A DNA stretch of 36,958 nt from positions 1 through 36,958 of the forward strand of contig JAHHIB010000087.1 of the NCBI GenBank assembly GCA_019359075.1, written 5' to 3'. A program made the position numbers and the translations under genes. The notes beneath the pieces were generated by a model. That model was not told where the DNA came from, ran no database searches, and worked only from the letters and a program-made list of their open reading frames with translations. This DNA comes from Kalymmatonema hyalinum WJT4-NPBG1. Lineage in GTDB: Bacteria; Cyanobacteriota; Cyanobacteriia; Cyanobacteriales; Nostocaceae. Below are positions 827 through 11,662 of this stretch, in pieces. Position 1 is the first letter of the stretch, and every line of letters begins with the position of its first letter.

Positions 827-3046
827 ATGACAGCAATCACTCCAAAGGCAACTGCAGCATCTCCCGATTTTTGCGAAGGAATTCAATACTTTGGTGAAGC
901 AATCCCAGGTTTTGAAACTTATGGTGGAACACCTGCCATAGAGTCGGGGGGGAGTGCCAACCCCACAGATCCAGCCGCCGCCTTCCAAACCTTACTTGCT
1001 GCCGACGCTTTGCGCTACCTGACATTGCAAATCACCGGAGCTAAAGCCTCTGGACATCCAGGCGGTTTTGCCTCTCAAGCGGAAGCTTATGCAGCGCTTG
1101 TCATGCTCGGTTACAAGAACATTATCACCGAAGTGGGACACCATGCCCCTGGATTTTATAGTGCCATGTTCTTGGATCGTTCGCTAGAGGACATGGGAAT
1201 TTTTACAGTGCAACAATTGCGCGATCGCTTCCGGGAAAAGCACGGACTCTTGGGACACCTTTCCGGCTACATTCCTGGTATTCTTGCACCTGCAGGTCCA
1301 TTGGGACAAGGGCAACACTTTGCAATGGCAGCTGCAAAGCTGCATAAAGATAAGTTATTCCCCTTCACCGTTGGCGACGGTGGACTGGGTGAACCGTATA
1401 TCATAAGTGCGATCGCACACTTCCACACTGCGTTTCCAGAGGCGACCAACTTCTTGCCAGTGTTGGTGTGGAACGGTTACAGCCAGGAACACCACAGCAT
1501 GGTTTCCCTGAAAACGAATGAACAGATGAAGGCATACTGGCAAGGTAACGGTTTTGAAGAAGTCGTGTTAGTCGATGCCAAAGACTTTGACGACCAAAAC
1601 CAAACAGGCGATTATGTTGATAGTACTGTCTTTTCATTTGAGCAGCGGCTAGCTTTCACCAAAGCCGTGCTAACTGGTGTGGATAAAGCTGCTAAATCTG
1701 CACTTGGCGGCAAGCTTACCGTCTTCATCATAAAACAACTCAAAGGTGCAGGAGTCCACGCAAGAGGTGCAAAATCGCACAACCTCTATCCTAAAGATAC
1801 GCTCGATGCTCCGCATATTATAAGTGCGTTGAAAGAACGTGCCTTACCTCCAGAAGCTTGGCAACTGGTACGGACAAATGCTGAACGCGCAGGCGGAGGT
1901 CCCGCAGCGAAGACAGTTGTGACAGAATTTGAATTACCATTGCCAGAATTAGGCGAATTGCCTTTAGAAGAATATGCAGTAGGAGGAGATCCAAAAGTTT
2001 CCACAACATCTATGGGAAGATTAGTGGGAATAGTTGGACAGAAGGATAAGAATTTCCTGGTTACTAACGCCGATGGTAATGAAGCATCAGGAATTGCTAA
2101 TATCAACCAAGCACTCAAGATTATTCATCCCACCACAGACGACTTATACAACCAAGCACCAGGCGGACAAGTTTACGAACCTTTGAGTGAAGATGCTTGT
2201 GCTGGGTTAGCTGCTGGTTTATCGTTGATGGGTGCGAGAACTTTGTGGTGTTCCTACGAATCTTTTGCCATCAACGGTTTACCAATTTGGCAAACAGTCA
2301 CGCAAGCAATGGCAGAATTGCGACGTCCCACTCCCTCAACAATTACTTTATTCACTGCTGGCGCATTAGAGCAAGGGCGTAACGGTTGGACTCATCAACG
2401 TCCGGAAATTGAAGCTTATTTTGCTTCCTTGATGCGGAATGGTAATGTGTTCCCATTGTTCCCCCCCGATGCTAACAGTATTCAAGTCTGTTATGACTGG
2501 GCGCTGACAACAAAGAATAAGGGAATTGTGATTACTGCGAGTAAGTCGCCGTTGCCAATTAGAACAACATTTGAACAAAGTCGTCAAGGGTTACGCGATG
2601 GCGCAGTTGTGTTGCAAGATGTCGATTCTAATCAAGGGGGAAGTAAGAAAGTTGTATTTGCCGTAATTGGCGATATGACGTTAATGCCAGTATTTGAAGC
2701 TGCTGCTTTTCTAGAAACTGAAGGTATTGCCGTCAAGATTGTTTCTGTTATCAACCCCCGGCGTTTGTATCGTCCTCATGATACCGCTTGGGATACTTGT
2801 TCGCAAGCCGATGGCGATTTCTTGGATGATGAGAAATTTGCCGAATTGTTTGCTGGCGATGCACTCATTGGTGTCACTGGTGGCGCTGCGGCGATGCTGG
2901 AACCAATTATGCTGCGGAGTAGTGCGAAGCGGGATACCTTCGCGTGGAAGCGTGGGGAGACGACGGCGAGTGCTGGTGAGTTGATGGCGTTTAATGGTTT
3001 GACGGCGCAGGCGTTGGCGAAGCGGGGGATTGAGTTGCTGCATTAA
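827..3046 (+). CDS. Phosphoketolase/transketolase-family ThDP-dependent enzyme
   Basis: A 739-residue protein. The N-terminal part carries transketolase-like motifs (SGHPGG at 75-80, GPLGQG at 157-162) and a ThDP site (GDG at 183-185, then NGYS near 216). The C-terminal half looks like phosphoketolase: a block LSEDACAGLAAG followed by a CSYESF motif, NGWTHQRPE near 522, and FPPDANS followed by a SKSPLP motif. Phosphoketolases split xylulose-5-P or fructose-6-P into acetyl-phosphate plus a sugar phosphate, bypassing lower glycolysis; the protein is cytosolic. It is somewhat shorter than the roughly 800 residues usual for bacterial Xfp, and the substrate cannot be read from sequence. It stands alone with its own terminator. 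Family membership is firm; the exact reaction is not. It could be a diverged paralogue of canonical Xfp. Confidence 0.8.
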   Translation: MTAITPKATAASPDFCEGIQYFGEAIPGFETYGGTPAIESGGSANPTDPAAAFQTLLAADALRYLTLQITGAKASGHPGGFASQAEAYAALVMLGYKNIITEVGHHAPGFYSAMFLDRSLEDMGIFTVQQLRDRFREKHGLLGHLSGYIPGILAPAGPLGQGQHFAMAAAKLHKDKLFPFTVGDGGLGEPYIISAIAHFHTAFPEATNFLPVLVWNGYSQEHHSMVSLKTNEQMKAYWQGNGFEEVVLVDAKDFDDQNQTGDYVDSTVFSFEQRLAFTKAVLTGVDKAAKSALGGKLTVFIIKQLKGAGVHARGAKSHNLYPKDTLDAPHIISALKERALPPEAWQLVRTNAERAGGGPAAKTVVTEFELPLPELGELPLEEYAVGGDPKVSTTSMGRLVGIVGQKDKNFLVTNADGNEASGIANINQALKIIHPTTDDLYNQAPGGQVYEPLSEDACAGLAAGLSLMGARTLWCSYESFAINGLPIWQTVTQAMAELRRPTPSTITLFTAGALEQGRNGWTHQRPEIEAYFASLMRNGNVFPLFPPDANSIQVCYDWALTTKNKGIVITASKSPLPIRTTFEQSRQGLRDGAVVLQDVDSNQGGSKKVVFAVIGDMTLMPVFEAAAFLETEGIAVKIVSVINPRRLYRPHDTAWDTCSQADGDFLDDEKFAELFAGDALIGVTGGAAAMLEPIMLRSSAKRDTFAWKRGETTASAGELMAFNGLTAQALAKRGIELLH

Positions 3047-5464: not shown

Positions 5465-5605
5465 TACATCTGAAGATGAAAAAGCGCTGGCTTGAAGGCA
5501 AACTTCCTCCAAGCCAGACACTCACTGCTTTTCACATTTTCCGACAAGTCTAATGACTCATGACGACACTCACTTTGAAAGTATGCAATTTAAATGTGTT
5601 TTGGC

Positions 5606-6919
5606 TTATCTATAATCCTGGCTTTGAATATCCCGCAAACGAGCAGCATCACGAATACCATACTCAGGGCGACTGAAGCGGTTTAACTGAGTCTCAAAAA
5701 AGTCTCTATTTGCTTGTAAATGCTCAGGATCTGGGTCATCTAAAGGATGTAAAAGTGCTGTTCGTAATGCTTGAATAACAGCAGAAGTGACGCAGTACAT
5801 TGACCGTTGGAAACTAACTCCCAACTGAATCAACATATCTTCTTCTCCTCGGCAATATTGCTTGTAGTATTCAACAAGATATGGTGGTAAAAAGTGCAAC
5901 ATATCTTGCATGAGCAGTGTTGGTGGAATGCCTGCGGTACCTACTGGAAAGACATCTGCATAAAGAATTCCGTAGTGGAAATCTTTTTGATCTGTAGGTA
6001 CTTGCCGTGCTTGAGCATTATAAGATTTTGTACCCCGGAAGGGAGCGGTGCGGTAGAAAACAGCTTCGACGTAAGGTAATGCAGCTTCGTGAAGCCATAC
6101 GAATCCTTTAGATTTGGGAACGATTTCGTAGCATTCACCACGGATATAAACATTATGGTAAATAGGACGACTTGCGACTGCAAGAATTCCATTCACCAAG
6201 AAATTCATTGCCTCTGGGACACTGGTAATTTTCCCTTCGTCATACAAGTCTGACATTTCAAAGAATACAGGAGCCATGATTTCCCAGAACAAGCCCAGAT
6301 TAGCGTAGTAGGACATCTGACGGCACTGTTCTATAAACATATCCGGGAACAGCTTGTAGAGTCCCAGCATTAATGGGTTGCCTTGGAAGTAAGCTTTGAT
6401 TGCCCTGTCAGCGTTGGCTTTATATTCTTCGGTGTCCAGATAAGGGTCAAATTGTCCACCCATACCTCTGTGCCAAAGCATTGCGCGCATACAAGCTTCA
6501 GCAAATTCCATGTTGATGCGATCATGGAATAAGTGATGCAATAACTTGGGCATTTTGAAGGTTTCACCCTTTTCCATAAATGCCAAAAGTTCTGGATGGG
6601 CAGTTGCTTCACCGCGCCAAACTCTCAACTCAGCATCATCGCCTGCATAATGATTGTGGAGTTCTAAATACTCCTTAGGCAAGAAGTATTTGAAGAAGGG
6701 AAATGGATTTATAAATACGCGTTCGGCAATATATAATAAGTCGCGCCAATAGAAGTCCATCGGCACTGCATAAGCTTTGTAAAGACCGATGATTTGCATT
6801 AAGTTTTCTGGCGTATCGGGTAACATTGCACCGCCTGCTTCTAAGCGATGAATGACTTCTGCAAATTCATGGGTTGAAGGAGGTAATTTAGTTGTAGATT
6901 TATCTGGAGTTTGTACCAT
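5606..6919 (-). CDS. cupA: CO2 hydration protein CupA (ChpY)
   Basis: A 437-residue protein starting MVQTPDKS. AAGGAAGT just upstream of the ATG at 6919 decides this start over one seven codons earlier. The protein matches the CO2-hydration subunit of NDH-1MS: the LEAGGAMLPDTPENLMQIIG block near the N-terminus, HNHYAGDDAELRVWRGEATA, HHLFHDRINMEFAEACM. CupA sits on the cytosolic side of the thylakoid NDH-1MS complex and drives CO2 to bicarbonate conversion coupled to electron transport. I prefer CupA over CupB because of the length (CupB is shorter) and the ndhF-ndhD context. It is the last gene of the operon-like run; no cupS follows. Confidence 0.85.
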   Translation of the reverse strand: MVQTPDKSTTKLPPSTHEFAEVIHRLEAGGAMLPDTPENLMQIIGLYKAYAVPMDFYWRDLLYIAERVFINPFPFFKYFLPKEYLELHNHYAGDDAELRVWRGEATAHPELLAFMEKGETFKMPKLLHHLFHDRINMEFAEACMRAMLWHRGMGGQFDPYLDTEEYKANADRAIKAYFQGNPLMLGLYKLFPDMFIEQCRQMSYYANLGLFWEIMAPVFFEMSDLYDEGKITSVPEAMNFLVNGILAVASRPIYHNVYIRGECYEIVPKSKGFVWLHEAALPYVEAVFYRTAPFRGTKSYNAQARQVPTDQKDFHYGILYADVFPVGTAGIPPTLLMQDMLHFLPPYLVEYYKQYCRGEEDMLIQLGVSFQRSMYCVTSAVIQALRTALLHPLDDPDPEHLQANRDFFETQLNRFSRPEYGIRDAARLRDIQSQDYR

Positions 6920-7003
6920 TTTGACTTCCTTAAAAAGCAATTGCTATATTCTGTCTTTTGTTTTTACAAATGAAGGACAACTTAGCTTGTACTGCCTCCG
7001 GCA

Positions 7004-7027
7004 CCCCTCTAGGTTTGCAAAGAGGGG
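7004..7027. other. Hairpin between ndhD and cupA
   Basis: Arms CCCCTCT (7004-7010) and AGAGGGG (7021-7027) form a 7-bp stem with a 10-base loop. There is no T-run, so it may be a processing or stability element in the polycistronic message, not a terminator. Confidence 0.5.
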
Positions 7028-7043
7028 ATGACGGTAAGGTTCT

Positions 7044-8546
7044 TCATGGGTTGAGAGCTACTTGAGGAGTGACTGTTTTTTCCAAAGGAGGAATAGCCGC
7101 AACCATTGCTGTAGATGTTGGTTCAGCCCAACGCACTAACCAAGTGGGTTGTATTCCCAAGAACAATATGATAACTGCCAAGACAAGGGCTGGCATTTTC
7201 TCAGACCATAGAACTTTGGGATAGTAAGCTAAGTTGTTGTCAAGTCTGCCAAAACAGGTGCGGTTAAGGAGGATGACAAAGTAAACTGCGGTTAAGCCAG
7301 TGGCGATGACACACAACAGTGTTGGTATGGGAAAGACAGAAAAACTGCCTTGAAAGGCAATAAATTCTGCAATGAATCCTACCATGCCTGGAATGCCGGC
7401 GCTTGCCATACCACCTAAAACCAGTAAGCTGCTTATCAGGGGTAATCCGCGTATGGGACTCATTAAGCCATTGAGTTTATCCAACTCACGGGTTCCTACC
7501 TTTGCTTCGACAACTCCTACTAAATGGAAGAGGAGGGCGAGGATGATGCCGTGACTCACCATTTGCGTAATGGCACCGATGAGTGCTAAGGAAGTGCTGG
7601 CGGCAGCTGCTAGCAATATATAGCCCATATGACCGATGGAACTGTACGCCACCATGCGCTTGATGTCTTTTTGGGCAATGGCTGTAAGCGCCCCGTATAT
7701 GGCACTGACAGCTCCCCAAATTGCCAAAGTCGGCGCAAGAATACTCCAAGCTTGGGGAAACAGCGCCATCCCAAATCGCAAAATGCCATAAGTTCCTAAC
7801 TTTGCTAGCACTCCACCGAGAAGAATCGCAACGGGGGCTGAAGCTTCAACGTAAGCATCCGGCAACCAAGTGTGCAAGGGAACTACAGGAATTTTAATAC
7901 CAAAACCTAGTACTATGCCTGCAAGTAGAATGATTTGCAGTGCTGTTGATAAGGTTTGGGTGGAGAGTGCATCGTAATTAAAGCTGGTTGAACCTGTGAG
8001 CCAGACTGTACCTAAGAATGTCGCCAGAATTAACGCTCCTGAAACAGCAGTATAAATCAGGAACTTCATGGCAGCATAAGCCCGGTTTTGACCACCCCAA
8101 ATCGAAATCAGCAGATAGAAGGGTATCAATTCCAGTTCGTAGAACAAGAAGAAGAGCAACAAATTCTGTGCGGCGAGCGCACCTGCGACTCCTCCACTCA
8201 CTAATAAGATGAGCGAATAGAAAAGCCGGGGACGTTCGGTTTGTTGACTGCTGCTGTAGATGGCAACCCAGGTCAGCAAACTATTTAAAATGAGCATCAG
8301 TATCGAAAGTCCGTCAACCCCCAATTGATAGCTCAAGCCCAAGGTATCATTCCAAGGTAAATATTCCTGTAACTGCATTCCGGAATTGGAGATATCAAAT
8401 TTCAGCAGTAGGAAAATATTCCAAATAAGAGCTAATCCAGCAACAGTTAAGGCTGTCAAACGAACATTAATTGCAGGAATAGCACGAGGCAATAAACTAA
8501 TAACAGCGGCACCAAAAATAGGCAGCCAAATTAAGGTACTGAGCAT
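7044..8546 (-). CDS. ndhD: NDH-1 subunit 4, NdhD3-type (CO2 uptake)
   Basis: A 500-residue, highly hydrophobic antiporter-like subunit with about 13-14 membrane spans. Family marks are FYELELIPFYLLISIWGG (conserved membrane Glu), VPLHTWLPDAYVEASAPVAI and the DIKRMVAYSSIGHMGYI loop. NdhD couples electron transfer in the thylakoid NDH-1 complex to proton pumping. The variant paired with NdhF3 and CupA belongs to the low-CO2-inducible NDH-1MS form. The number 3 is inferred from the neighbouring cupA, not from a tree. It lies 116 bases after the carbonic anhydrase gene and about 124 bases before cupA, all on the same strand. Confidence 0.9.
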   Translation of the reverse strand: MLSTLIWLPIFGAAVISLLPRAIPAINVRLTALTVAGLALIWNIFLLLKFDISNSGMQLQEYLPWNDTLGLSYQLGVDGLSILMLILNSLLTWVAIYSSSQQTERPRLFYSLILLVSGGVAGALAAQNLLLFFLFYELELIPFYLLISIWGGQNRAYAAMKFLIYTAVSGALILATFLGTVWLTGSTSFNYDALSTQTLSTALQIILLAGIVLGFGIKIPVVPLHTWLPDAYVEASAPVAILLGGVLAKLGTYGILRFGMALFPQAWSILAPTLAIWGAVSAIYGALTAIAQKDIKRMVAYSSIGHMGYILLAAAASTSLALIGAITQMVSHGIILALLFHLVGVVEAKVGTRELDKLNGLMSPIRGLPLISSLLVLGGMASAGIPGMVGFIAEFIAFQGSFSVFPIPTLLCVIATGLTAVYFVILLNRTCFGRLDNNLAYYPKVLWSEKMPALVLAVIILFLGIQPTWLVRWAEPTSTAMVAAIPPLEKTVTPQVALNP

Positions 8547-8593
8547 AGATCGATTTGAGTCAAAATAAAATTTGAAAATTTGTTAGTAAGATG

Positions 8594-8634
8594 ACTGACG
8601 CAGAGAAGACAGAGAAAGGGGTTTTTGCGTCAGT
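8594..8634. other. Hairpin between the carbonic anhydrase and ndhD genes
   Basis: Arms ACTGACGCA (8594-8602) and TGCGTCAGT (8626-8634) are perfect 9-bp complements around a 23-base loop. The loop holds the GCAGAGAAGACAGAG-type dispersed text. On the minus strand no T-run follows. It could be a repeat footprint or a site of mRNA processing. Confidence 0.5.
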
Positions 8635-8662
8635 ATTAAGTGGCTGGTTAACGCGTCTATTA

Positions 8663-9379
8663 TTAACTCACTATAGTCACTGTACCATTGTCTAAATCGT
8701 AATAACCACCTACAACTTTCAATTTTCCTGCATCAATTAACTGAGAGAGAACACTTGATGCTTTCAACTTTTCGACTTGCATCAAAATATTCGCTTTACA
8801 GGCGTTTTCTAGCTTATCACCTGGTAAGTTTTTTGATTTTTCAACACTGGGTTTAATGGCATCAATCAAACTGCCAATTTGACCAGGAACTTGAGCACCT
8901 TTTATCGTGGCATCTACCGCGCCACATCTTTCATGCCCTAATACCATGATGACTTTTGAGCCTAATACTAAGCTGCCAAATTCTAAGCTGCCAATCTCTT
9001 CGGCAGTGGCAACATTACCAGCAATCCTGCAGACAAATAAATCTCCAAGCCCTTGGTCAAAAACAATTTCAGATGGGACTCGTGAATCGGCACATCCGAG
9101 AATAGATGCAAACGGCTTCTGAGCTTTTGCGACTTCAACAAGACGTGTCTGAGTTTGGTTAGGGTTGCGACGTTTTCTTGTCACAAAGCGTTGATTTCCC
9201 TCGATTAACGATTGCAGAGCTTGCTCCGGATTTATGTCTTTTTGTTGTGCTACAGCTGGTTCAGAAACCATTAACTTGGAGCCAATTCCTGCTGTTAATA
9301 CCCCTGTTCCTATTGCTCCTGCACCAAATTTGAACAAAGTTCTTCTGGAAAGATTGCCCTTCTGTGTTTTTCTGTTCAT
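8663..9379 (-). CDS. Secreted (Tat-signal) beta-carbonic anhydrase, EcaB-like
   Basis: A 238-residue protein. The N-terminus has a twin-arginine signal (SRRTLFKFG at 11-19), a hydrophobic stretch and a likely AVAQ cleavage site near residue 45. The mature part is a beta-carbonic anhydrase with zinc ligands Cys96, His149 and Cys152 and the Asp98-Arg100 dyad (CADSR, GHERCGAVD). It interconverts CO2 and bicarbonate. The signal places it in the periplasm or thylakoid lumen, as for the cyanobacterial EcaB group. It lies between ndhF and ndhD on the same strand (gaps of 123 and 116 bases), suggesting it serves the NDH-1MS CO2-uptake complex. Enzyme class is certain; the partnership is inferred. Confidence 0.9.
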   Translation of the reverse strand: MNRKTQKGNLSRRTLFKFGAGAIGTGVLTAGIGSKLMVSEPAVAQQKDINPEQALQSLIEGNQRFVTRKRRNPNQTQTRLVEVAKAQKPFASILGCADSRVPSEIVFDQGLGDLFVCRIAGNVATAEEIGSLEFGSLVLGSKVIMVLGHERCGAVDATIKGAQVPGQIGSLIDAIKPSVEKSKNLPGDKLENACKANILMQVEKLKASSVLSQLIDAGKLKVVGGYYDLDNGTVTIVS

Positions 9380-9454
9380 CGTCTTTTTCTGATACTTCTA
9401 CTTGCTCATTATTAATTATTTCTTATTAATGGTTTATTGTAAATTTATTCCTTT

Positions 9455-9482
9455 GTAAGGGCGCAAGGCTTTGCGCCCTTAC
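9455..9482. other. Palindromic hairpin between ndhF and the carbonic anhydrase gene
   Basis: GTAAGGGCGCAAGG (9455-9468) faces CTTTGCGCCCTTAC (9469-9482), giving a stem of 12-13 bp with almost no loop. This GGGCGCAAGGC-type hairpin has the look of a dispersed cyanobacterial repeat. It could partly terminate or process the ndhF message. Confidence 0.55.
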
Positions 9483-9502
9483 TCCACAAAGGAATCCCAA
9501 AA

Positions 9503-11365
9503 CTAAAACACCAAATCTAAAAACTGAACTCCCCAGTATTGCCAACTCACAAGCATTCCTAAAACTCCTACTCCCAACAGCACAGTAAATGCATAAAACT
9601 GGGTTTGTCCTGAGGTGCTGTATTTCAAACCTTCTCCACTCAATATGGAAATTAAGCCAACTAAGTTAACAATTCCATCAAATATTAAGCGGTCAATCAT
9701 ATCGGCAAGTTTTGAAATCAGGTCAACACCCAAAACTATGCTCACCCGATACAGTTTCGGTGTGTAGAAGTCGTATGCTAGCAAGTCTTGCAAAGGTTTC
9801 AGTGGGAGACGAACTGGTTTGGGAACAGCATTGCCCAGATAAATGACACTGCTGATGCTGCAACCAAAAACACTCGACCAAACCAGCAGTAGTGCGACAT
9901 CTTTGTTAAGATCTGCCCAAGTTGGTAGCAGTGATAAGCTTTGCAACACCAAAGGTAAATGGAGAGTAAAAGCAAGCAAAATAATCATGGGTAGAGCCAT
10001 TTGCCAACTCACTTCCGGAGAGCGATCGCTCATTTGCTTGGGTTTCCCACCAAAAATTAAACTGAATTCCCTTGTTAAACTGAAAGCTGTCAAAGCGTTC
10101 ACCGCTATCACCACTCCCACTAGCCAAGGTTGCGTTTCCCACAGCCCCGAAGCTAATTTCAGCAATGCCCAAAAGCCGCCCAACGGTGGAAACCCAATTA
10201 ACGCCAGAGTCCCTACTACATAAGCTATGCCTGATACTGGACGGCGTGACCAAAGTCCTCCTAAAAGGGTGACATCTTGAGTGATGCTGTTCCAGATAAT
10301 GGCACCAGTACTCATGACTAAGAGTGCTGCGGCTAAAGCATGAGTCAGTACTAACAAGAGTGCTGCTTCGTTTTGTTGCGTTCCTACGGCGATAAACACC
10401 AAACCCATGTAGGTACTCACGGAATACGATAAGCAACGTTTGATGTCAATTTGGGCGATCGCAATCAAAGAACCACCCACTGCTGTCACTGCACCAATAG
10501 CCACCATTGCAGAACTGGCGAAGGGCGACAAGCTAAAAACAGGTTGCAGTTTAATCAGGACCCAAGCACCAGTCGCAACGACCACTGAATTCCGTAAAAT
10601 CGTACTGGGAACAGGTCCTTCCATCGCCTCATCCAACCACAAATGCAAGGGAAACTGGGCGCACTTACCCATCGGACCTGCAATTAATGCCAGACACACT
10701 AACGTTATCAAGGTTGGGTTTACATTGGCAGTAGCCGCCCACTCCGCGAGTTCCGTATAGTTCCAAGTCCCTGCTAGGGGGAATAAACCCAATACCCCCA
10801 TCAGCAGAAATAAATCTCCCACCCGCTTGGTTAAGAAAGCATCTCTAGCACCCGTCACAACCAAAGGCTGGCTAAACCAAAGTCCTACTAATAAGTAAGT
10901 TCCTAAAGTTAGGACTTCCAAAATGACATAACTGAAAAACAAAGAGTTGCATAATGCAAGGGCGCATAGCCCAGCTTCAAACAAACCCAACAGTGAATAG
11001 AAGCGTGCCCACCCCCAGTCCATCTCCATATAGCCGACAGCAAAAATTTGTGCCAGCAAATTCAAGCCAGCAATGACAACCATTGCGGCGACACTTAATG
11101 AGGAGATTTCTAAATCAATAGAGAGGTTTAAACCAGCCGTACTCAGCCAAGGTATAGATATCTCATACGGCGGTTGATTCCATGTTGCTGGTAATACAAG
11201 AGCAGCATGAACAAACGCAAAAAACGTCATAACCAAGTTGATGTAACCCGCTGGTCTTGGTCCCGTGCGTCGAATGATTCCTGGAGACCAAGGCACGGCT
11301 AAAAGCCCGCCAATCAAGGCATAGCAAGGTACTAACCAAACGGTTTCAAGCAGGAAATGAGCCAT
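9503..11365 (-). CDS. ndhF: NDH-1 subunit 5, NdhF3-type (CO2 uptake)
   Basis: A 620-residue polytopic protein. I chose the ATG at 11365 because GAGGAGAG stands just before it and the protein then begins MAHFLLETVWLVPCYALIGG; the longer reading adds 21 unlikely residues. It has many membrane spans plus a C-terminal extension, as expected for NdhF. The conserved loop reads HLWLDEAMEGPVPSTILRNS, where respiratory NdhF has [20 protein letters not shown]; the change from Ile-His-Ala to Arg-Asn-Ser is, as far as I recall, typical of the CO2-uptake paralogues. It is the first gene of the ndhF-carbonic anhydrase-ndhD-cupA run. F3 versus F4 is not settled beyond the cupA context. Confidence 0.88.
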   Translation of the reverse strand: MAHFLLETVWLVPCYALIGGLLAVPWSPGIIRRTGPRPAGYINLVMTFFAFVHAALVLPATWNQPPYEISIPWLSTAGLNLSIDLEISSLSVAAMVVIAGLNLLAQIFAVGYMEMDWGWARFYSLLGLFEAGLCALALCNSLFFSYVILEVLTLGTYLLVGLWFSQPLVVTGARDAFLTKRVGDLFLLMGVLGLFPLAGTWNYTELAEWAATANVNPTLITLVCLALIAGPMGKCAQFPLHLWLDEAMEGPVPSTILRNSVVVATGAWVLIKLQPVFSLSPFASSAMVAIGAVTAVGGSLIAIAQIDIKRCLSYSVSTYMGLVFIAVGTQQNEAALLLVLTHALAAALLVMSTGAIIWNSITQDVTLLGGLWSRRPVSGIAYVVGTLALIGFPPLGGFWALLKLASGLWETQPWLVGVVIAVNALTAFSLTREFSLIFGGKPKQMSDRSPEVSWQMALPMIILLAFTLHLPLVLQSLSLLPTWADLNKDVALLLVWSSVFGCSISSVIYLGNAVPKPVRLPLKPLQDLLAYDFYTPKLYRVSIVLGVDLISKLADMIDRLIFDGIVNLVGLISILSGEGLKYSTSGQTQFYAFTVLLGVGVLGMLVSWQYWGVQFLDLVF

Positions 11366-11586: not shown

Positions 11587-11662
11587 TTATTTATCTATAG
11601 TAGTTCGATAGAAAAAAGCAGAGACACAACGAATTGCGTCTCTTTTATGCTTTTCGCTTGAA

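Follow-up and report, generated by a model that had tools for sequence, protein, structure and literature searches.

A Tat-signal beta-carbonic anhydrase between ndhF3 and ndhD3 as a candidate EcaB-type partner of cyanobacterial NDH-1MS

The window analyzed here, a whole contig of 36,958 nucleotides from Kalymmatonema hyalinum WJT4-NPBG1 (JAHHIB010000087.1; C75 among the 174 contigs of this 8.4 Mb genome), carries a gene for a beta-carbonic anhydrase (CA) with a twin-arginine (Tat) signal inside the operon of the CO2-uptake complex NDH-1MS. Sequence comparisons make it very likely that this CA is a dedicated EcaB-type partner of NDH-1MS. Judged by the tree, in which Synechocystis sequences are nested in the same clade (clade A below; support 99/96), the CA of the window is the orthologue of Synechocystis EcaB, and its slot inside the operon is probably the ancestral address of EcaB. 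No account of such a CA slot was met in the open-access texts consulted.

The carbonic anhydrase and its operon

Profile matches placed four genes on the minus strand. In order, these are (i) ndhF3, encoding an antiporter-like subunit of NDH-1MS (9503..11365; TIGR01960, 1025 bits against a cut-off of 588.7); (ii) the gene for the Tat-signal beta-CA of 238 amino acids (aa) (8663..9379; PF00484, 132.6 bits against 25.7); (iii) ndhD3 (7044..8546; NF005611, 894.4 bits against 764); and (iv) cupA, also called chpY (5606..6916; TIGR01964, 760.6 bits against 293.7). A preliminary description of this stretch had proposed this order, with gaps of about 100-125 bases and a Tat signal on the beta-CA, and had mentioned that an EcaB-type enzyme reportedly associates with CupA/CupB. 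All four genes lie where it had placed them, and the gaps measured 123 (ndhF3-CA), 116 (CA-ndhD3), and 127 bases (ndhD3-cupA). The slot and a twin-arginine motif (read by eye) were confirmed, and an EcaB-type identity is supported by the grouping with Synechocystis EcaB.

The N-terminus of the CA, MNRKTQKGNLSRRTLFKFGAGAIGTG...EPAVAQQ, combines a twin-arginine signal with an AVA-QQ cleavage-like site, both recognized by eye rather than by a predictor. The motif SRRTLFKF occupies residues 11-18, with the arginine pair (RR) at 12-13, and the probable signal peptide comprises residues 1-44 (codons at 9248..9379, minus strand; likewise read by eye), AVA preceding the probable cut. Residues C96, D98, R100, H149, and C152 are present, to which we ascribe a zinc role on the presumed beta-CA ligand pattern Cys-Asp/Arg...His-Cys. 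This pattern was found in all 109 CA rows of the final tree, and RR in 47 of 47 full-length operon CAs. The best matches among solved structures were 2a5v and 1ym3. The closest CAs come from Scytonema sp. RU_4_4 (87%) and from Brasilonema sp. UFV-L1, which marks the host as a cyanobacterium related to both.

NdhF3 and CupA of the window look canonical in sequence. Aligned to the structure 6tjv (positions counted by eye), NdhF3 conserves R37, Y41, and E114 of the CupA/NdhF3 site (chain F), and H128 and R133 of CupA align with H130 and R135, the zinc ligands in chain P; the roles of these residues are taken from published texts (PMC13249358, PMC6981117). No match to CupS, whose gene would follow cupA in an NDH-1MS operon, was found inside the window. 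Eight CupS-like stretches lie on other contigs of the genome, the best (56% identity) on C120. A second cluster, on C128, has ndhF, ndhD, and cup matches in that order and is taken as ndhF4-ndhD4-cupB; it holds none of the genome's four matches to the CA family Pro_CA.

Recurrence, ancestry and inheritance of the slot

A search with CupA gave matches in 312 of the 388 genomes of the class. The window and 100 neighborhoods among the matches listed, taken mostly by top CupA identity, formed a set of 101 cupA loci; some genomes were skipped by hand (G061 and G009 within the nearest 29), and the set leans to window-like CupA. One intact CA lay between ndhF3 and ndhD3 in 18 loci and two in one further locus (L044), while two loci held CA fragments (L056, L073), 79 had no CA, and one was cut by a contig end. 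The pairing thus recurs, with unchanged slot and strand, in 19 of 101 loci, which goes beyond chance but, given selection by CupA identity, is no random-sample rate; occurrence in this genome alone is what the preliminary description had named as speaking against its proposal. The 19 carrier loci span seven family codes (f1, f5, f6, f30, f33, f39, f40), and some lie on genomes of one or two contigs (G097, G178), so the arrangement is not a binning artifact. The two CAs in L044 (5795-7163) are tandem and divergent.

A second set, with named organisms, was anchored on the CA and consisted of the best 80 of 578 confirmed relatives of a query built from operon CAs. It contained 27 loci with the order ndhF3-CA-ndhD3 and two more with CA-ndhD3 at a contig start. 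Carriers of the slot in this set were Scytonema, Brasilonema, Nostoc, Calothrix, Westiellopsis, Fischerella, Oscillatoria, Microcoleus, Limnofasciculus, Chlorogloea, Microcystis, Gomphosphaeria, Laspinema, Chamaesiphon, and others. The two sets share at least two genomes (L042 = L176, L059 = L162), both copies of which were kept in the pair counts and distance correlations given below.

Across both sets, 134 ndhF-ndhD pairs were compared, 48 with a CA or CA fragment between them and 86 without (CupB-type pairs included). The CA-less gaps had a median of 104 bases, and such short gaps leave no room for another CA-sized gene; in the six exceeding 300 bases no open frame longer than 83 codons was present (frames not database-searched). 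In the 101-locus set, cupS followed cupA in 5 of the 19 CA-bearing loci vs. 35 of the 82 others and was missing from this place in 61. The arrangement, earlier described as differing from the standard order, is better called a recurrent second order, with cupS varying separately.

A quick first tree placed most operon CAs together (support 84), with L173 outside. The final tree comprised 109 CA rows, identical proteins being entered once, and was built without L111 and L219 (long branches), L001, and stretches shorter than 150 aa (e.g. L056 and L073). Two clades separate in it with support 99/96, A with 61 rows and B with 48. Clade A contains 46 CAs in the slot, two at contig edges by ndhD3, one after a cupB-type gene, three Synechocystis EcaB-type proteins, and nine found elsewhere (six cyanobacterial, three from other phyla). 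Clade B, which holds stand-alone and sbtA-linked Tat CAs, has none in the slot. Within the named set, the slot accounts for 27 of 34 cyanobacterial clade-A rows (2 at contig edges) and 0 of 43 clade-B rows, one clade-A row lying after a cupB-type gene. L173 (Laspinema), which is in the slot, forms a long basal branch of clade A. Among 12 genes neighboring the six non-operon cyanobacterial clade-A CAs (two each for L166, L170, and L174, four for L177, one each for L184 and L200), no carbon-uptake family was found; about 6.6 kb upstream of the L177 CA, a piece of cupA in the same orientation lies at the contig edge.

Synechocystis was located through a stretch of PDB 5swc, which we take to be Synechocystis CcaA. 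Matches at 85-97% came from five genomes sharing the genus code g17, and g17 was equated with Synechocystis since the CcaA of two of them is 97% identical; G065 and G231 reach only 85-86%, two other genera reach 81-83%, and the genus label of G065 and G231 rests on the shared code. In each of three of these genomes (G218, G616, G065), a single EcaB-like CA was found, and the surrounding 16 kb contain neither ndhF3 nor ndhD3 nor cupA; the cupA of G218 lies about 1 Mb from its CA gene. G259 gave no EcaB-like match. In G231, the CA lies between ndhF3 and ndhD3, and the contig ends after ndhD3, leaving cupA unseen. The three displaced CAs form one clade with those of G231, two Microcystis, and Hydrococcus (seven rows, 99/96); they are 50-54% identical to the window CA, two being on long branches. 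L230 is probably slr0051. EcaB appears, from this tree, to have left the operon inside Synechocystis, with transfer as the alternative. The open-access texts consulted contain no statement of a CA gene between ndhF3 and ndhD3, although subscription literature may show the locus. As far as their accessible text goes, a comparative study of 17 thermophiles found ecaB scattered (PMC9120777) and one of 12 alkaliphiles did not detect it (PMC5472144), neither reporting the slot.

Distances between CAs from 44 operons correlated with those of NdhF3 (Mantel 0.705), NdhD3 (0.633), and CupA (0.484), compared with 0.665 for NdhF3-CupA and 0.935 for NdhF3-NdhD3; 0 of 2000 permutations were as extreme for each of CA-NdhF3, NdhF3-CupA, and NdhF3-NdhD3. 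The ratio of nonsynonymous to synonymous substitution rates (dN/dS) of the CA was 0.08-0.19 in 11 informative pairs (the twelfth pair was identical), far below 1, showing that the CA is under purifying selection. Mapped onto a quickly built tree of NdhF3 from 100 loci, CA presence (fragments counted) requires 14 gains or losses, 10 of them forced by well-supported branches, vs. an average of 19.4 for shuffled CA labels. This points to frequent loss or to gene movement by homologous replacement. In L056 and L073, the remaining fragments suggest that the CA decayed in place.

Related CAs also adjoin other carbon-uptake genes. Clade-B CAs stand beside sbtA in the genome of the window (L003) and in two Nodosilinea (L215, L216), and an sbtA-CA pairing also occurs in L115; with sbtA matches in just 6 of 84 loci searched, the link is uncommon. 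In L003 (1486-3416, contig C35), the Tat-signal beta-CA gene directly follows sbtA (PF05982, 395 bits) on the same strand. L115 (2-11151) carries on one strand ndhF4-ndhD4-cupB-sbtA-CA-ndhF3-ndhD3-cupA-CA, the types being inferred from identity. In Chamaesiphon sp. 341R (L182:2181-7684), a clade-A CA is found not in the ndhF3-ndhD3 slot but after an ndhF4-ndhD4-cupB-type cluster. The displaced EcaB orthologue of Synechocystis sp. G065 (L239:4556-8731) has an Sbt_1 gene (PF05982) as its neighbor and a Na+/H+ exchanger gene close by. In a metagenome-assembled genome of Actinomycetota (L219:7001-8722), which may be misbinned, an SbtA-like gene (42%) is immediately preceded by one for an EcaB-like CA. 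The presence of exported-type beta-CAs beside varied carbon-uptake systems supports a function, yet keeps a periplasmic role open.

Proposed role and rival explanations

We lean slightly toward a role in which the EcaB orthologue has been kept in the operon, is made together with the pump, is exported, and dehydrates HCO3- for NdhF3 and CupA. Its position inside the operon would lead to synthesis together with NDH-1MS; the folded protein would be exported by Tat to the lumenal, perhaps also the periplasmic, side and could there equilibrate HCO3- and CO2. It may dehydrate lumenal HCO3- using protons released by NDH-1, with the resulting CO2 entering the non-polar tunnel of NdhF3; CupA would re-hydrate this CO2 on the cytosolic side, and the proton would return through NdhD3. 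Export would also keep a fast CA out of the cytosol, where the bicarbonate pool would be short-circuited. As for the direction from HCO3- to CO2 at the lumenal site alone, we are marginally more doubtful than confident. More speculative, and rather unlikely, is a complete relay in which NDH-1MS and EcaB would act as two enzymes moving bicarbonate by lumenal dehydration with the protons pumped by the complex, passage of CO2 through NdhF3, and cytosolic re-hydration by CupA. If true, the 'CO2 pump' would in part be a redox-driven bicarbonate scavenger, recapturing carbon from the lumen.

The thylakoid location of EcaB and its interaction with CupA and CupB reportedly go back to Sun et al. 2019. 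In the published texts available, Synechocystis EcaB is described as active (PMC10096703), thylakoid-located, and interacting with CupA/CupB (PMC10096703, PMC9283085). Cryo-EM work proposed that CO2 could reach the CupA site from the luminal side through the non-polar NdhF3 tunnel and that hydration protons are pumped to the luminal side (PMC6981117, PMC13249358). Cytosolic and lumenal supply of CO2 to CupA are treated as rival hypotheses (PMC10096703), and lumenal supply would fit an exported CA made with the pump, since HCO3- and lumen protons would yield CO2 at the tunnel mouth. Expression of a cytoplasmic CA was lethal below 20 ppm CO2 (PMC6981117). The fixed operon slot and the RR motif of all full-length operon CAs argue on genomic grounds for a partner across the membrane, independently of the work on Synechocystis, and organisms with the native locus can now be named, e.g. 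Nostoc and Fischerella. In our PDB search, 6tjv was the sole match to CupA; strain BP-1 is, we assume, the same organism as its source. This structure was obtained from Thermosynechococcus elongatus (PMC13249358), and BP-1 is listed without ecaB in a published table (PMC9120777), so a CA partner could not have been seen in it.

Several observations weigh against such a role. NDH-1MS evidently works without the CA in the 79 of 101 operons that lack it, presence is patchy (14 changes), and nine clade-A rows, three of them from other phyla (L222, L223, L225), lie elsewhere. The CA has a higher dN/dS than NdhF3 in 10 of the 11 pairs and than CupA in all 11. RR is equally common outside the operon (58 of 63 non-operon CAs), so it is a feature of the entire exported family rather than of the operon type only. 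A periplasmic site is favored by the sister CAs beside sbtA, whose product is a plasma-membrane transporter. The partners reported for EcaB (PMC10096703, PMC9283085), CupA and CupB, are cytosolic, opposite to the side of a Tat substrate, and direct contact of CupA with exported EcaB is hard to picture unless through NdhF3 or an unexported fraction. Synechocystis EcaB was once found inactive (PMC9865033), and early studies saw no role of EcaA/B in the CO2-concentrating mechanism (PMC11360081). In Microcystis PCC 7806, ecaB (not matched here to the operon copy) was unresponsive to CO2, as were the CO2-uptake genes save for a slight fall of ndhF3 (PMC4419860). Texts on EcaB still describe its role as debated (PMC10096703, PMC9865033, PMC11360081).

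Unlikely, but the most serious competitor, is a periplasmic enzyme, exported across the plasma membrane to speed equilibration of CO2 and HCO3- at the cell surface and to supply whichever species is short; the operon would then be shared solely for low-CO2 induction, without contact to NDH-1MS. Tat signals do not distinguish lumen from periplasm and are compatible with either compartment, and clade-B members as well as one clade-A member (Synechocystis G065) adjoin sbtA-family genes. EcaB was first detected in the Synechocystis periplasm by proteomics, whereas its bulk was reported on thylakoids (both PMC10096703, PMC11360081). Against a purely periplasmic role also stands the distribution over the tree, with 46 of 61 clade-A rows in the NDH-1MS slot (48 with the contig-edge rows) vs. 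0 of 48 in clade B.

Improbable is a regulatory or structural subunit, in which EcaB would bind the Cup/NdhF module and tune or stabilize hydration by CupA instead of providing its substrate, perhaps on the cytosolic face. The reported interaction with CupA and CupB and the regulation of CO2 uptake speak in its favor (PMC10096703, PMC9283085), but RR in 47 of 47 operon CAs and the zinc site in 109 of 109 rows point to an exported, active enzyme, and a cytoplasmic CA is lethal at very low CO2 (PMC6981117). That the CA entered the operon once and was inherited by linkage without any functional tie seems very improbable on selection and recurrence, no search for mobile elements having been made. 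Patchy presence, decay in L056 and L073, and the off-operon position in three Synechocystis genomes would suit such a passenger, whereas purifying selection, maintenance across seven of the sampled family codes, CA-less gaps too short for another gene, and separate linkages to cupB-type and sbtA-family genes would not.

Expression signals and relation to known systems

Terminator-like hairpins, each a consensus match only, were found on the minus strand after cupA (5487..5517), as the probable end of the transcription unit, and upstream of ndhF3 (11620..11643), as the probable end of the upstream unit; a second terminator-like site before ndhF3 lies at 11419-11400. The consensus scan gave no such site in any of the three gaps, but sites of this kind also occurred inside the genes, and their number was somewhat above chance (11 vs. 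6.1 expected, standard deviation 2.6). A minus-strand promoter-like site lies in the ndhF3-CA gap (9443-9415), promoter-like sites being at chance level (9 vs. 11.4 expected). The RbcR consensus with at most one mismatch matched 7 times in the window (9.2 expected) and not within the 567 bases before ndhF3; as the matches are not above expectation, nothing follows on regulation.

The ndhF3-CA gap also contains a stable hairpin without a T tract (9447..9495, minus strand; z -4.35), possibly an RNA processing site. A dispersed repeat was rejected because its exact core occurs once in the genome. In the nearest relative, L146, this gap shows no strong fold. Folding of 37 operon gaps (8 shorter than 40 bases were left out) gave strong folds (z below -2) in 12, with sequences that differ between lineages, so the hairpin is not conserved in general. 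A Microcoleus-type group (L082, L158, L159, L163) has a different strong hairpin in this gap. Elsewhere in the window, positions 827-3046 encode a protein with weak matches to phosphoketolase models (best 105 bits; model cut-offs of at least 777).

The four Pro_CA genes of the genome are those of the window CA, L001, L002, and L003. L001 is CcaA-like, near PDB 5swc and without an RR signal; L002 is a Tat-type CA for which no carbon-uptake neighbor was seen. Carboxysomal CcaA belongs to the beta-CA family, as does the window CA. However, the Synechocystis CcaA-type matches are only 29-30% identical to the window CA, which carries an RR signal, and the genome has the separate CcaA-like L001; an assignment of the window CA to CcaA was therefore rejected.

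Synechocystis EcaB (Slr0051) resembles the window CA in its clade, its beta-CA zinc site, and its RR signal, but in G218, G616, and G065 its gene lies away from ndhF3, ndhD3, and cupA. With the standard NDH-1MS operon (ndhF3-ndhD3-cupA-cupS), the window shares order, strand, and the residues of the CupA/NdhF3 site; the standard operon lacks the CA between ndhF3 and ndhD3, and the window lacks cupS. A would-be functional analogue is CAH3 of Chlamydomonas, a thylakoid-lumen alpha-CA that dehydrates lumenal HCO3- with lumen protons (PMC10096703), although it belongs to another CA class and feeds pyrenoid Rubisco rather than a complex I module.

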